From Actinomycetota bacterium (lineage in GTDB: Bacteria > Actinomycetota > Nitriliruptoria > Nitriliruptorales > Nitriliruptoraceae), in contig JAHWKY010000011.1 of assembly GCA_019347575.1 (NCBI GenBank), forward strand, positions 1 through 64,000: DNA of 64,000 bases. The letters are read 5' to 3'. The notes under the pieces were generated by a model. It did not search any database, was not told where the DNA came from, and was given only the letters and a program-made list of their open reading frames with translations. Positions within the stretch are counted from its first letter, which is position 1. Each line of letters begins with the position of its first letter. Made by a program: the position numbers and the translations under genes. Shown in pieces: positions 45,411-52,165 of the stretch.

Positions 45411-46493
45411 GTGGTCACCATCAACGAGTACCTGCAGTACGTCGTCGAGAAGGGCGGTTCCGACCTGCATCTCAAGGCAGGCGGCCCGGCGTACGTCCGC
45501 ATCGACGGCGAACTCAAGCCCATCACGAGCCTGCCCCCTCTGTCTCCGGCGGACACGGAGCGCTTCGCGTTCGCGATGATGGACGACCGCACCACCAACC
45601 AGTTCATGAACCACAGCGAGGCCGACTTCGCGTACTCGCTGCAAGGTGTCGGTCGCTTCCGGGTCAACGCTTTCCGACAGCGCGGCTCGGTCGGGATCGT
45701 GCTCCGCCGCGTCCTGCCCGGCACCCCGGACTTCGAGTCGCTCGGTCTGCCGCCTGCGGTTCGGGCGCTCGCCGAGGAGCACCGCGGCCTCGTGCTCGTC
45801 ACCGGGCCGACCGGCTCGGGGAAGACCACCACGACGGCGGCGATGATCGGGCACATCAACCGCTCGCGGCGCTGCCACATCGTCACGATCGAGGACCCGA
45901 TCGAGGTGATGCACCGCGACGAGTCGGCCATCATCGACCAACGCGAGGTCGGGGTCGACACGTCGGACTTCCCGCGGGCGCTCAAGGCCGTCGCCCGCCA
46001 GGACCCCGACGTCATCTTCATCGGCGAGATGCGAGACCTCGAGACCGTAATCGCCGCCCTGCAGGCCGCCGAGACCGGCCACCTGGTCATCTCGACCCTG
46101 CACACGACCGATGCGCGCGAGACCGTCAACCGCATCGTCGACTTCTTCCCCTCCGAGCAGCAGCACCAGGCGCGCATCTCGCTGGCCAACAACCTCAAAG
46201 GGGTCGTCAGTCAGCGTCTCCTGCCTCGTGCGACCGGCGAAGGGCGCATCGCGGCGATCGAGGTGCTGGTGATGACCACCCGCATCTTCGAGTTCATCCT
46301 GGACCCCAACCAGACTGACGAGATCCCTGACGCCATCGCCGAGGGCGAGTACTACGGCATGCAGACCTTCGACCAGCACCTTCTGCAGTTGTACAAGGAC
46401 GGCCTGGTGTCGTTGCGCGACGCGTTGAGTGCCTCGACCAACCCCCACGACTTCCGGGTCGCGCTACGCGCGGCGGGGCTGGCCAGCAGCTAG
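45411..46493 (+). CDS. pilT: PilT-like type IV pilus retraction ATPase
   Basis: 360 residues from GTG 45411 with AGGAGG seven bases before. N-domain start INEYLQYVVEKGGSDLHLKAGGPAYVRIDG, Walker A GPTGSGKTTTTAAM, Asp box/Walker B DPDVIFIGEMRDLET, His box GHLVISTLHTTDARETVNRIVDFFP. Hexameric ATPase that depolymerises pili. No other pilus gene is nearby, so it is isolated from its machinery; the pilin-like small protein at 41790 is the nearest candidate. Ends in a strong hairpin. Confidence 0.92.
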   Translation: MVTINEYLQYVVEKGGSDLHLKAGGPAYVRIDGELKPITSLPPLSPADTERFAFAMMDDRTTNQFMNHSEADFAYSLQGVGRFRVNAFRQRGSVGIVLRRVLPGTPDFESLGLPPAVRALAEEHRGLVLVTGPTGSGKTTTTAAMIGHINRSRRCHIVTIEDPIEVMHRDESAIIDQREVGVDTSDFPRALKAVARQDPDVIFIGEMRDLETVIAALQAAETGHLVISTLHTTDARETVNRIVDFFPSEQQHQARISLANNLKGVVSQRLLPRATGEGRIAAIEVLVMTTRIFEFILDPNQTDEIPDAIAEGEYYGMQTFDQHLLQLYKDGLVSLRDALSASTNPHDFRVALRAAGLASS

Positions 46494-46517: not shown

Positions 46518-46570
46518 GACGGGGCCCGGGCACGCAGCCCTCCACGTGCCGACCAGTAGCCTGCTGGGTG

Positions 46571-48019
46571 ATGTCCTCGTCCGAGCCCCACGGTGGGCTG
46601 ACCCCCGACCAGGCCGCTCAGCTCGGGCGGCTCGTCGACGTCTTCCCCGAGGCCCGTGAGCTCGGTGAGCTGTTCGCCGCGGCGGGGCAGGAGCTGTACC
46701 TGGTCGGCGGGACCGTGCGGGACACGCTCCTGCGGCGGGGGGTCGATCGGCTCGACCTCGATCTCGCGACCTCGGCCACGCCCGAGATCAGCGAGAAGCT
46801 GATGTCCTCGTGGGCCGACAACGTGTGGCTCACCGGTGCCCGCTTCGGCACCGTGTCCGCGCGGAAGGGTGGCCGGCAGATCGAGGTCACCACCTACCGG
46901 TCCGACGACTACGAGCCGGGTTCGCGTCACCCCGAGGTCACCTTCGGCGACACGATCGACGGCGACCTGCACCGCCGTGACTTCACCATCAACGCGATGG
47001 CGGTGAAGGTCCCCGACTTCCTCTTCGTCGATCTGTTCGGCGGTATCAGGGACCTCAACAGCGGCGTGCTGCGCACCCCCACCGATCCCGAGGTGTCGTT
47101 CTCCGACGACCCGCTGCGCATGGTGCGGCTCGCACGGTTCGTCTCGGTCCTCGATGCGCGCCCCGACCCCGCGACGGAGGCGGCGGCTGCACGGATGGCG
47201 GAGGCGATCACAACCATCAGCACCGAGCGGGTTCGCGACGAGCTCGACAAGCTGCTGCTGGGCGCCGAACCCGGACGCGGTCTCGACGTCCTCGTACGCA
47301 CCGGGCTCGCGACGCACGTGCTGCCCGAGCTCGACCACCTCCGGGCGTGTCGGGACCCGCTGCACCGCCACAAGGACGTCTACGCGCACACGCTCGCGGT
47401 CGTGGATAACGCACGCGACCTCGAGCCGGACGAGCCCGACCTGTGGCTGCGGCTCGCGGCACTGCTGCACGACATCGGCAAGCCGAAGACCCGCCGCATC
47501 CACGGCGACGGGACGGTGACGTTCCACCACCACGAGCTGGTCGGGGCGCGCATGACCCGCACCCGGCTGCGCGAGCTGCGCTACGACAACGCCACCGTCG
47601 ATGCGGTCACGTCGCTGGTCGAGATGCACCTTCGCTTCCACACCTACTACCTCGGATGGACCGACAGTGCCGTCCGCCGCTACGTCCGCGACGCGGGCCC
47701 GCTGCTGAAGCGGCTCAACCTGCTCACCCGCGCCGACGTCACCACCCGCAACGAGCGTAAGGCCGACCGCATCCAGCGACGCATCGACGAACTCGAGGAA
47801 CGCATCGTCGAGCTGACCGAGCAGGAGGAGCTCGACCGGCTCCGCCCCGCCCTCGACGGCAACCAGATCATGGACCACCTGGGCATCGAACCGGGACCGC
47901 TCGTCGGTGAGGCGTGGAACCACCTGTTGGAGCTACGGATCGAGAACGGTCCGATGACCGAGGACGAGGCCCGAGCCGAACTCGATCGATGGTGGGCCGA
48001 GCGCCAGCAGGATGACTGA
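46571..48019 (+). CDS. pcnA: CCA tRNA nucleotidyltransferase
   Basis: 482 residues from ATG 46571 (GTG 46568 also possible). Class II nucleotidyltransferase head LVGGTVRDTLLRRGVDRLDLDLAT with the D-x-D metal pair, RRDFTINAMAV, SDDPLRMVRLARF, then an HD domain with DVYAHTLAVVDNA and LAALLHDIGKPKTRR. Adds or repairs the 3' CCA end of tRNAs; the tRNA-Ile in this window lacks an encoded CCA. Position beside the Nudix/DUF6049 block agrees with mycobacteria. Confidence 0.93.
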   Translation: MSSSEPHGGLTPDQAAQLGRLVDVFPEARELGELFAAAGQELYLVGGTVRDTLLRRGVDRLDLDLATSATPEISEKLMSSWADNVWLTGARFGTVSARKGGRQIEVTTYRSDDYEPGSRHPEVTFGDTIDGDLHRRDFTINAMAVKVPDFLFVDLFGGIRDLNSGVLRTPTDPEVSFSDDPLRMVRLARFVSVLDARPDPATEAAAARMAEAITTISTERVRDELDKLLLGAEPGRGLDVLVRTGLATHVLPELDHLRACRDPLHRHKDVYAHTLAVVDNARDLEPDEPDLWLRLAALLHDIGKPKTRRIHGDGTVTFHHHELVGARMTRTRLRELRYDNATVDAVTSLVEMHLRFHTYYLGWTDSAVRRYVRDAGPLLKRLNLLTRADVTTRNERKADRIQRRIDELEERIVELTEQEELDRLRPALDGNQIMDHLGIEPGPLVGEAWNHLLELRIENGPMTEDEARAELDRWWAERQQDD

Positions 48020-48785
48020 GCTCCCTCCGAGTTGGCGCGACGAAGCGGACCGAGCCACGACCGCACCGTCGCCTCCGGGCCCGGACGAACCCTCGCCCTA
48101 CGTCCCGATCGGCGAGTTCCAGGCGGGCAGCTACCAGCGCAACGCCTTCGCCCAGGGCACCGCGGAGGAGGCCGAGGCGCTGGTCGATGTGCTCGGGCTC
48201 GCCGCCGGCGCGGTCGTCCTCGACGTCGGCTGCGCCGACGGCCGCCACCTCCGCCACCTCGCCGCCCACGGTGTGCGCGGCATCGGGGTGGACGTGGTCC
48301 ATGCCACCCTCGCGGCGGCGCCCCGCCAGGCCGGTGTCACCTACGTCACGGCGGATGCCCGGCGTCTACCCGTGCGCCCTGGGAGCGCAGATGCGGTGCT
48401 GTGCCTGTGCCAGGGTGGGCTCGGGGTGTCGCCGGCCACGGACGCGCGGGTCCTGGCGTCACTCGCGTCGGCGGTCCGTCCCGGCGGTCTCCTCGCCGTC
48501 ACGCTCTTCCACGCGCTCGCCGCCGCGCGCAGCCTCGTCCCCGGCGACGCCTTCGATCCCGTCCACCTCGTGCACCACCACGTCGCCGAGGTCACGGGAC
48601 GGGACCGGGAGGTCGCACGCCTCCCGCTGTGGACCTCCACCTACACCGTGCCGATGGCCGTGACGGCCGTGACCGCCGCGGGGTTGTCGGTGCGGGAGGT
48701 GCGCGGCGTGCAACCGGGGCGCTACCGCGGGAGCGGGGTCGGGCTCGACGACCCCGAACTGCTGATCGTCGGCGAGCGCCTCTGA
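48012..48785 (+). CDS. Class I SAM-dependent methyltransferase
   Basis: 257 residues from ATG 48012, overlapping pcnA by eight bases. Motif I VVLDVGCADGRHLRHLAAHG, motif II GIGVDVV, and ADAVLCLCQGGLG / VRPGGLLAVTLFHA as motifs III-IV; the C-terminal half binds an unknown substrate. Methyltransferase_11-type. Target unknown; coupling with pcnA hints at tRNA or nucleotide metabolism but is not proof. Confidence 0.8.
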   Translation: MTELPPSWRDEADRATTAPSPPGPDEPSPYVPIGEFQAGSYQRNAFAQGTAEEAEALVDVLGLAAGAVVLDVGCADGRHLRHLAAHGVRGIGVDVVHATLAAAPRQAGVTYVTADARRLPVRPGSADAVLCLCQGGLGVSPATDARVLASLASAVRPGGLLAVTLFHALAAARSLVPGDAFDPVHLVHHHVAEVTGRDREVARLPLWTSTYTVPMAVTAVTAAGLSVREVRGVQPGRYRGSGVGLDDPELLIVGERL

Positions 48786-48936
48786 CCCGGGCGGGTGACC
48801 GGGGAACCGCTGCACCGCTCGGGTTCGCGCGGTGAGCGCACGCCAGCGGACGAGCGCTCCGTCACGGTTCAGGCTTGCATGCGCCTGGCCGATAACCACC
48901 CACGGGGGATCGACCAGTGCCGCGCAGGAGGTCACG

Positions 48937-51810
48937 GTGGCCGAGGTCGCCACAGCACCGACCGCTACCGAGCGGCCACGCGCGGCCAAGGGGCTCAGCC
49001 CCATGGCCGCAGTCGCCCGTGCCGTCTTAGTGCTCGGGGCGCTGGGGGTGCTCGGCGCGTGGACGGTGTTGGACTTCCCCGACGATCCTCGCTGGGCCGC
49101 CTTCGGCGTGCTGACCGGGGCCGCGGTCGTGCTGAGCTACCTGCAGGAGCGCCGTCAGCTCATGCCGATGTCGGTGTCGATGGTGGTGGTCGGCGCCACG
49201 ACGCTCGTGCTGTCTCCACCGCTGGCACTGTGGTGCGCCTTCACGCTCGGGGTGTTCCGGGCGCTTCGCGGCGAGCGCACCTCGAGGCTGGTGGTGACGT
49301 CCTCATCGCTGGTGTTGACCAACGCACTGGCGGCGTGGGTGCGGCTGCTGGCGGACGAGCACCTCGGTGACCAGCCAGTCGTCTCGAGCGCCGACGGCGC
49401 CATCGGGATGCGTACCGCGCTCGCCGTCGCGCTCGCGCTCGCTCTTGGTTGGCAGCTCTCCCGCTGGATCGGCGCGTGGATCGACCAGCGTTCGATGAGT
49501 GCGACGTGGCGCCTCCACGCGCACAAGCGCTGGCTGCGCGACATGACGTTCGCGGCGACCGCCATCGTGCTGGCCATCGCCTGGGTGCTCTATCCACCAA
49601 GCATCCTGCTCGTGCTCGTCCCGCTCCTCGTCGCACTCCAGCAGGGCGCCACCGACGTGTTCACCGACGAGGTCAGCAGCGTCGACGAGCTCACCGCCCT
49701 GGCCAGCTCGGGGATGCTGCGCGTGGCGTTGGCCGAGGAGCTCGCCCGCAGCGAGCGGTTCGACCGTGAGGTGTCGGTCATCGTCGTGGACGTCGACGAG
49801 ATGAGCGAGCTCAACCTTCAGTACGGGCACACCATCGGCGACGACGTCGTCCGAGGAGTCGCGGACCGCATCCGATCGGTGGCGCGTGACTACGACGTCG
49901 TCGCCCGCATCGGGGGCGACTCGTTCGCGCTGCTACTGCCCGAGACCGCCGAGGACGGGGCCCGTATCGCCGCCGAGCGGTTGTCGGAGGCCATGCGGTC
50001 CGGCCCGATCCGGGTCGATGGCGGGGCGACCTCGGTCCCGGTCTCGGTGTCGATCGGGGTGGCGACCTTCCCCGGCGACGCCGACCAGCGCGAGACCCTG
50101 CTCACCGAGGCCGAGCTCGCTGCCGCTTTCGCGCGCCTCGAGGGCGGTGACCGCATCGCCGCGGCGTCCAAGCTCCCCGAGGGGTTCCACCGCGCCGCCT
50201 CGGCCCCCGGTCGGGCGAGCGACGCCGTCCTGGCCCGGTTCGCGGGTACCGACGCGATGAGCGGCGACGGCGGTCCGTTCACTCCGTCCGACGATCCCCT
50301 GACGACCTCGTCCATCGACAGCGAACGCCTCGTGCGCGCCTCCAGCGAGCCGCTCGGTGGCGCCAAGCCACGGACCGACCGGCTCCTGCTCGCAGCGGCG
50401 ATCGTCGCGGCCGCCGTCAGCATCGTCGCGATCACGAACGAGCCCGGCATCGCGGACGTCGGCCGGTTCGCGCTGTTCGCGGGCATCGCCGTTGCTGCGG
50501 AGTGGTTCGCGGAGTCGATCTACGGTCGCGCGAACGCCTCGTGGTCGGCCGTGCCGCTCATCGGCCTCGCCGTGACCCCGGCGCTGCCCGCCGCCGTCGT
50601 GCTCGCGGCGGTCATCGCCGGCATCGGCGGCGGGGTGATCCGTGGTGTGCGGGCCCGGCAGGCGCTGTTCAACACGGCGGTGCTGGTCCTGTCGACGCTC
50701 GCAGCGAGCGTGGTCGCGAAGCCGCTCACGTCCGGCGTGCTGTCGGCGGAGGTCGAACTGTTCGCGGCGGGTGCAGTCGCGGGTGTCGCGTTCTTCGTGA
50801 TCGACACCTGGCTGGTGGCGACCGCCGTCGCGCTGTCGAGCGGCGCGCCCGTGTTCGAGATCTGGCGCGAGGACCTCGCGTGGCTGCTGCCTCACCAGGT
50901 CGGCATGGGTCTGCTCGCGGGGGTCATGGCGTTCGCTCACGACCGCATCGGCATCCTCGGGACCCTCGTGCTCGTCATCCCGGCGCTGGGCCTGCACTTC
51001 GCGCAGCGACAGTTCGTGTCCCGGACCCGCGACCACGTCGTCCGTCTGCGCAACCTCAACGACGACCTCCAGCACGCCAACACCCGTGTCGTCCGCGTCA
51101 ACGAGCGCCTCACCGACGCGCTCGAGCAGGTGAACCAGGGCTACCTCGTCACCGTGGAGTCCCTCGCGCTCGCCGTCGATGCCAAGGACAGCTACACCGG
51201 CAGCCACATCGACCGCGTCGAGGCGTTCGGGTCACGGCTACTCGAGGTGCTCGACCCCGAGCTGCGCGACGACGAGGCGATGCTGTGGGGCTTCCGACTG
51301 CACGACGTCGGCAAGATCGGCGTCCCCGACTCGGTGCTGCTCAAACCCGGCCCGCTCGACGAGGAGGAGTGGGAGCTGATGCGGCGCCACCCCGACATCG
51401 GGGCGCAGATCGTGTCCGAGGCTCCGTTCCTCCAGGGCGCCCGCGACATCATCCTGCACCACCACGAGCGCTGGGACGGCCGCGGCTACCCCCACGGGCT
51501 GCGTGAGATGAACATCCCGTTCGGGGCGCGGCTGTTCTCGCTCATCGACGCCTTCGACGCCATGACGTCCGACCGCCCCTACCGCAAGGCGATGGCGATC
51601 GACGAGGCCCTCCACGAGCTGATGCGCCACGCCGGCACGCAGTTCGACCCCGAGATGATCGAGGCGTTCCTGCAGATCGACCCGAACGAGTTCGGCGAGA
51701 TCCGTGCGCGGGTGGACGCGCGCCGAGACGCGCGTCAGGGCCGCTCCGGTGGTCGGCTCATCCCCATCGCCGAGGGCTACGAACCCTCCCGCCTCGCCGC
51801 CCACGGCTGA
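48937..51810 (+). CDS. Membrane GGDEF/HD-GYP protein with two membrane modules
   Basis: 957 residues. GTG 48937 is chosen for AGGAGG five bases upstream, although the frame is open from 48832. Order: membrane block 1 (about 25-220), degenerate GGDEF domain (VIVVDVDEMSELN, RIGGDSFALLLPE near 325: GGDSF instead of GGDEF), linker, membrane block 2 (about 480-680), coiled coil, HD-GYP phosphodiesterase (DSYTGSHIDRVEAFG, HDVGKIGVPDSVLLKPGPL near 788, HHHERWDGRGYPHGL). The GGDEF part is probably inactive or only binds GTP; the HD-GYP has all metal and GYP residues. Predicted c-di-GMP hydrolysis tuned by two membrane sensors. Confidence 0.85.
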   Translation: MAEVATAPTATERPRAAKGLSPMAAVARAVLVLGALGVLGAWTVLDFPDDPRWAAFGVLTGAAVVLSYLQERRQLMPMSVSMVVVGATTLVLSPPLALWCAFTLGVFRALRGERTSRLVVTSSSLVLTNALAAWVRLLADEHLGDQPVVSSADGAIGMRTALAVALALALGWQLSRWIGAWIDQRSMSATWRLHAHKRWLRDMTFAATAIVLAIAWVLYPPSILLVLVPLLVALQQGATDVFTDEVSSVDELTALASSGMLRVALAEELARSERFDREVSVIVVDVDEMSELNLQYGHTIGDDVVRGVADRIRSVARDYDVVARIGGDSFALLLPETAEDGARIAAERLSEAMRSGPIRVDGGATSVPVSVSIGVATFPGDADQRETLLTEAELAAAFARLEGGDRIAAASKLPEGFHRAASAPGRASDAVLARFAGTDAMSGDGGPFTPSDDPLTTSSIDSERLVRASSEPLGGAKPRTDRLLLAAAIVAAAVSIVAITNEPGIADVGRFALFAGIAVAAEWFAESIYGRANASWSAVPLIGLAVTPALPAAVVLAAVIAGIGGGVIRGVRARQALFNTAVLVLSTLAASVVAKPLTSGVLSAEVELFAAGAVAGVAFFVIDTWLVATAVALSSGAPVFEIWREDLAWLLPHQVGMGLLAGVMAFAHDRIGILGTLVLVIPALGLHFAQRQFVSRTRDHVVRLRNLNDDLQHANTRVVRVNERLTDALEQVNQGYLVTVESLALAVDAKDSYTGSHIDRVEAFGSRLLEVLDPELRDDEAMLWGFRLHDVGKIGVPDSVLLKPGPLDEEEWELMRRHPDIGAQIVSEAPFLQGARDIILHHHERWDGRGYPHGLREMNIPFGARLFSLIDAFDAMTSDRPYRKAMAIDEALHELMRHAGTQFDPEMIEAFLQIDPNEFGEIRARVDARRDARQGRSGGRLIPIAEGYEPSRLAAHG

Positions 51811-52165
51811 TCGGCCAGCGGAACAGGACGATCGCCTCGACGTGCTCGAGCGGGACCGGCCCGAACGTGCGCGAATCGGTCGATGCTAGGGGGTTGTCGC
51901 CCCGCACCTCCACCCCCGCAGCGGTTACCTCCACGACGCGCTTGACGGCGGTCCGCGACGTCTCGCGCGGGTCGCGGACGACGACGAGCTGGCCGACCCG
52001 CAGACGCCGGGCGGGGCAGGTGACGACCAGATCGCCGGGGCGCAGCGTGGGGAGCATCGAGGTGCCTTCGATCCGGCGCGTCGCCCGGTTGAGCACCAGC
52101 GCCGCGCCCCACAGCAGCGCGACGGCCGCGGCGACCTGTCCGAACGTGGGTCGGCGTACCTGCAA
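51758..52165 (-). CDS. sodX: S26 signal peptidase-like nickel-SOD maturation protease
   Basis: 135 residues from TTG 52165 (GAGG seven bases upstream). One N-terminal helix (VAAAVALLWGAALVL), Ser36 in IEGTSMLPTLRPGD, Lys75 in SRTAVKRVVEV, then GDNPLASTDSRTFGPVP. This is the short S26 family that removes the propeptide of nickel superoxide dismutase. Divergent from sodN over 61 bases. The 3' end overlaps the tail of the HD-GYP gene by 53 bases. Confidence 0.88.
   Translation of the reverse strand: MQVRRPTFGQVAAAVALLWGAALVLNRATRRIEGTSMLPTLRPGDLVVTCPARRLRVGQLVVVRDPRETSRTAVKRVVEVTAAGVEVRGDNPLASTDSRTFGPVPLEHVEAIVLFRWPISRGRRGGRVRSPRRWG

Follow-up and report, generated by a model that had tools for sequence, protein, structure and literature searches.

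What does a cyclase domain with a degenerate signature do when it lies between two membrane modules and shares its chain with an HD-GYP domain? The question is raised by one gene of the window, the whole 64,000-nt stretch of DNA analysed here, in which frame analysis places a 957-codon open frame at 48937-51810 (+). The start codon is GTG 48937, preceded at a distance of 5 bases by an AGGAGG ribosome-binding site (48926..48931, +); the earliest start in frame, GTG 48832, is without an AGGAGG-like site. G+C at codon positions 1/2/3 is 0.73/0.49/0.92. Because long stop-free frames are frequent in this GC-rich window, frame length alone is no proof of a gene. The proof comes from domain matches, as Pfam detects GGDEF at residues 248-404 (E 1.3e-31) and HD_5 at 760-906 (E 1.1e-32) of the 957-residue protein (P0001). 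Four distinct orthologs, the window protein itself, L009, L010 and L011 (the start of the last being less certain), can be aligned along the chain.

The chain consists of membrane module 1 (residues 20-240; 48994..49656, +), a GGDEF domain (residues 244-408; 49666..50160, +) with the degenerate signature GGDSF (G326-G327-D328-S329-F330; 49912..49926, +), membrane module 2 (residues 470-705; 50344..51051, +), a conserved helix (residues 701-740; 51037..51156, +) and the HD-GYP domain (residues 741-918; 51157..51690, +). A preliminary description had given the order as membrane, GGDSF, membrane and HD-GYP within 957 residues, and Pfam, hydrophobicity and motif positions bear this out; the domain architecture search that it proposed as a check returned the two Pfam matches given above. 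Hydrophobic peaks fall at 23-228 (4 above 1.4) and 483-689 (6 above 1.4). The full-length structure model is poor (pLDDT 42.5, pTM 0.33), so that the true number of membrane helices is not fixed, and the helix at 701-740 is likewise taken from this low-confidence model. Compared with its orthologs, the window protein is 28-38% identical in module 1, the least conserved large part, and 42-53% identical in the GGDEF domain; the figures rise to 52-60% for module 2, 75-85% for the helix and 78-79% for the HD-GYP domain.

The HD-GYP domain carries HDVGK and HHERWDGRGYP, matching the HDxGK and HHExxDGxGYP motifs. Mapping onto PmGH shows that all four orthologs retain seven of its eight metal ligands together with D183/K225, the putative catalytic pair. 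The domain called intact in the preliminary description is therefore intact in its named motifs and in these seven ligands, with Tyr753 standing in the place of E185, a replacement by Tyr common to the four orthologs. According to PMC4159591, Tyr or Phe at the E185 position marks a subfamily that is more likely to hold two metals, and in this the window protein differs from PmGH. The nearest solved domains by sequence, V-cGAP3 (5z7c) and PmGH (4mcw), have motif residues in common with it, which makes cGAMP possible as a substrate besides c-di-GMP. Most likely, the protein is a membrane-bound HD-GYP phosphodiesterase for c-di-GMP, its activity being predicted from these residues. Elsewhere in the class, ORFs of G036:C84, G037:C231 and G046:C1:1326844-1327746 each have two HD_5 matches, a layout like the double-domain one of V-cGAP3.

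The model of the GGDEF domain (pLDDT 71.7) has a GGDEF fold. In VIA-align, PleD comes first with 146 residues aligned at Z 16.7 and rmsd 2.6, although many other GGDEF structures tie with it, and Foldseek ranks DosC first. As a modelled match, this indicates the fold; it does not favour c-di-GMP and is silent on the ligand. In phmmer, query residues 3-160 pair with chain positions 288-445 of PleD 2wb4 at equal length (positions in 1w25 are one lower). PleD numbers used below are the protein number plus 42, an offset adopted because RDYD then falls on R359/D362 and GGDSF on 368-372, in the numbering given in PMC7288161 and PMC12943098.

In PleD, D327 and E370 are described as metal ligands, K332 as the transition-state stabiliser, and N335, D344, K442 and R446 as substrate-binding residues (PMC12943098), with the guanine-side role of D344 also given in PMC7288161. 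Listed for the window protein, L009, L010 and L011 in this order, the equivalents of K332 are S/P/P/G, a loss in all four (Ser290 in the window protein), those of F331 are M/L/L/I, again changed in all four, and those of R446 are G/G/G/G. Within the signature, E370 corresponds to D/D/D/D (D328 of the window protein) and E371 to S/V/V/E, the signature of L011 being SGDEF. D327 corresponds to D/H/L/D and is lost in two. N335 (N/R/R/K) and D344 (D/A/A/Q) are kept in the window protein only, in which the change at K442 (R/T/T/R) is also mild. Nine full-length, non-orthologous GGDEF domains with GG(D/E)E and an intact look served for comparison: K332 and N335 are kept in all nine and D344 in eight, while R446 is variable even among these and is not diagnostic. 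An active diguanylate cyclase would have GG(D/E)EF and the catalytic Lys, in place of which we find GGDSF and Ser290. The domain is thus degenerate at residues 326-330, as first described, and the cyclase that was considered inactive is, judging from its residues, very probably dead.

It would be most improbable, then, for the protein to be a bifunctional enzyme that combines weak cyclase and phosphodiesterase activities. Degenerate motifs such as AGDEF of VCA0965 and SGDEF of ECA3270 are reported as still active (PMC3974145), L011 reads SGDEF, and D328 is kept in 4/4; however, VCA0965 and ECA3270 keep Glu as the fourth residue, where three of the four orthologs have Ser, Val and Val, and the loss of the K332 equivalent throughout also argues against catalysis.

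The preliminary description had further proposed that the domain might sense GTP on behalf of the phosphodiesterase. GTP in the old active site would then activate the enzyme, as in FimX or in Caulobacter CC3396 (PdeA). Both of these likewise join a degenerate GGDEF to a phosphodiesterase-type domain within a single chain, although the latter is an EAL and not an HD-GYP domain. These EAL precedents are given in PMC7288161 and PMC8846402. What speaks for the proposal is confined to the window protein, which retains more GTP-site residues than its three relatives (D327, E370, N335 and D344 equivalents, with Arg for K442); moreover, as K332 acts on the transition state (PMC12943098), its loss need not stop binding. 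What speaks against it comes from the family as a whole, as the guanine contacts N335 and D344 are present together in one ortholog of four and have been lost from the others by different substitutions. The D327 losses and the changes at F331 and R446 add to this, although R446 carries less meaning given its variation in intact-looking domains. Since the contact residues are not conserved across orthologs, even if the window protein keeps several, GTP sensing is ranked low and seems unlikely. Overall, two of 11 active-site columns are unchanged in the four orthologs, against 44/157 over the whole domain (P 0.36), so the active site appears to be under no special constraint.

Conservation is found instead at the allosteric c-di-GMP site. 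The I-site of PleD comprises R313, R359, D362 and R390 (PMC7288161). In the alignment, the equivalents are Arg271 (49747..49749, +), for the R313 position contributed by the neighbouring subunit, the RxxD motif R317-D318-Y319-D320 (49885..49896, +), five residues before GGDSF, and Arg348 (49978..49980, +). The set R271, R317, D320 and R348 (RRDR) is unchanged in four of four orthologs. The chance that four named columns would all be unchanged is 0.0056 over all columns and 0.013 over charged columns only (16/44), in a test that was chosen after inspection of the alignment and that covers about three lineages only, given the 80% identity between the GGDEF domains of two orthologs. I-site residues are also common among GGDEF domains: RRDR occurs in 4/9 of the non-orthologous GG(D/E)E domains as well as in L048 and L053, both of which are degenerate, and RXXD in about 53% of GGDEF domains according to PMC3974145. 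Plain inheritance is thus possible, and some of the residues may be kept for folding. We therefore take I-site conservation as moderate evidence. Across the orthologs the GTP site looks more decayed than the c-di-GMP site, and an I-site kept in all of them while the GTP contacts decay points to a ligand other than GTP.

Degenerate GGDEF domains that bind c-di-GMP through RxxD have been described in PopA and PelD (PMC10333796; for PopA also PMC5052742). The window protein resembles these receptors in combining a dead cyclase signature with a kept RxxD site; unlike them, it has the domain in one chain with an HD-GYP enzyme and between two membrane modules, whereas PopA and PelD act on other partners. 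Our tentative preference is that the pseudo-GGDEF, having no cyclase function, has been kept as a c-di-GMP receptor that would adjust the HD-GYP enzyme through its I-site.

A pseudo-GGDEF that binds no nucleotide at all and serves as a dimerisation or protein-contact part, positioning the HD-GYP domain, is also possible, if somewhat doubtful. Such a part would bring into a single chain the HD-GYP : GGDEF contact that Xanthomonas RpfG makes, which is reported to need no cyclase activity (PMC3749722), and it would suit a domain that is conserved overall around an active site without special constraint. The unchanged RRDR set is not explained by a contact role alone, however, and the D381-x-D383 that is also unchanged in four of four orthologs cannot be equated with the DxD contact motif of Xanthomonas. 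In the RpfG HD-GYP : GGDEF : PilZ complex the two domains likewise act together, but as separate proteins. A pilT-like gene does lie close to the gene studied here, but the same neighbours also occur without it.

The gene order in the window is DUF6049, Tyr-deacylase, PilT-like T2SSE ATPase (45411..46493, +), CCA/polyA polymerase-type nucleotidyltransferase (46568..48019, +), methyltransferase (48012..48785, +), the HD-GYP gene, S26 peptidase (51758..52165, -), Ni-SOD and MFS transporter. The same neighbours recur around the orthologs of G045, where the stretch read gave no MFS match, and of G031, where the methyltransferase was not found; the G044 contig begins at the methyltransferase. In five of 12 stretches read (G046, G043, G055, G042 and G040), the methyltransferase is followed by the S26 peptidase at a distance of 61-91 bases, with no match to the HD-GYP gene between these borders. 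In G063 the methyltransferase and the S26 peptidase stand in the same order but about 1.9 kb apart, again with no match to the HD-GYP gene; in the other six stretches the order is rearranged or one of the border genes is missing. In the five genomes, which are of the same family, the gene has been gained or lost at this site. PilT-like matches at E 1e-40, paralogs included, are found in 54/66 class genomes and the CCA enzyme in 57/66. As both are widespread and five related genomes have the same borders without the HD-GYP gene, proximity to pilT tells little and a functional link to it was set aside. The S26 peptidase frame is convergent with the HD-GYP gene and overlaps its 3' end by 53 bases (51758-51810). 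The peptidase is in turn divergent from the nickel superoxide dismutase gene (PF09055; 52227-52652, +), an arrangement that we take to resemble sodX-sodN.

The two membrane modules bear on how the chain arose. Pfam reports no MASE9 (PF20972) match for module 1 and a match of 15.5 bits (E 0.017) for module 2, below the cut-off of 24.3, which is not reached in the orthologs either (13.1 bits in L011, unreported in L009 and L010). The class has 20 MASE9-hit loci, of which 17 were taken for profile comparison and 15 aligned, two being without the anchor pattern. Against these 15 MASE9-like modules, module 2 scores 81.4, compared with at most 40.7 in 40 block-shuffles and 15.0 for the reversed profile; the corresponding values for module 1 are 45.8, 25.7 and 20.4, and control slices of a transporter of the window reach 16.4 or less. 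By these scores both modules are distant relatives of MASE9. Direct homology of module 1 to module 2 found no support in hhalign (1.0% and 0.6%); the two are linked solely through the MASE9-like set, and the like helix pattern in the full-length model is weak given its pLDDT. Motif patterns divide the 20 MASE9-hit loci into six with HD-GYP (L022, L024, L025, L028, L035, L038), three with GGDEF (L033, L034, L039), in proteins separate from the HD-GYP ones, and 11 with neither. HD-GYP proteins of the first type (e.g., L022, L025 and L028) also have a membrane module before the HD-GYP domain, but they have one module and no GGDEF, whereas the window modules score under the MASE9 cut-off. Two distant MASE9 relatives in one chain suggest the fusion of two signalling genes, and a fusion of two MASE9-like genes would be the simplest origin.

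Such an origin invites the thought that the first half is a passive relic of the fusion of a membrane-GGDEF gene with a membrane-HD-GYP gene, the second half working alone. The separate MASE9-hit proteins with either domain and the weak conservation of module 1 are consistent with this. We find it distinctly unlikely all the same, because the GGDEF domain is 40-53% identical across different genera, one of the orthologs belonging to another family, and the frame is kept in 4/4; a domain more conserved than module 1 is not what would be expected of a free relic.

The preliminary description considered the order of parts uncommon, and within the class it is. At E 1e-60 or better, matches occur in 5/66 class genomes and are full length in four (own genome, G044, G045 and G031), the same four, and the only ones, that a profile of membrane module 2 matches at E 1e-5. 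In a phylum sample, two of 396 genomes match at E 1e-70, both already among the known relatives. A scan of genome contigs gave two full-length loci, whose products are identical to L009 and L010, besides one match confined to the HD-GYP part; the proteins of G045 and G044 are also encoded in two named records, from Actinomycetota MAGs.

A census of HD-GYP proteins covered 30 search loci and all 38 non-ortholog ORFs of at least 590 residues among the matches listed; it comprises 69 ORF records, in which a single gene may be represented by more than one copy, and one later addition from G052, an ORF with HD-GYP and no GGDEF. Among the 69 records, some of which come from stretches that end at contig ends, GGDEF was detected at E 1e-5, a threshold that a very degenerate domain may escape, in the four orthologs, one of which is counted twice, and otherwise in L106 of G011 only. 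L106 (G011:C21:626111-630590, ORF 306-2573) is a 756-residue membrane protein with an intact RYGGEEF, an RRDR I-site and HD-GYP; its GGDEF lies directly before the HD-GYP domain with no membrane module between, and it is a possible bifunctional enzyme. At L098 (G028:C148:31000-40000), two long HD-GYP ORFs of 1096 and 835 residues stand in tandem.

Under the preferred reading, in which the pseudo-GGDEF is a c-di-GMP receptor, c-di-GMP would bind the I-site (R271, R317, D320, R348) of the pseudo-cyclase and alter the packing of protein copies. The signal would then pass through membrane module 2 and the conserved helix, raising or lowering HD-GYP activity, so that the enzyme would tune the breakdown of its own substrate, with the two membrane modules contributing further signals. 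Binding, coupling and its sign are all predictions from conserved residues and domain order.

We know of no HD-GYP case in which a pseudo-cyclase built into the chain reads the substrate by its I-site. The pairing of a degenerate GGDEF with an EAL phosphodiesterase domain is well known, and for degenerate GGDEF domains control by GTP as well as control by c-di-GMP has been described. Control of HD-GYP by an attached pseudo-cyclase was not found described in the literature searched, which barely covers subscription journals. The c-di-GMP and GTP readings predict different outcomes in one simple assay. Taken as a whole, and with more doubt than attaches to the receptor role, this protein may represent a one-protein controller of c-di-GMP levels, derived from two fused MASE9-like genes, in which an HD-GYP enzyme would read its own substrate through the I-site while two membrane inputs act upon it.
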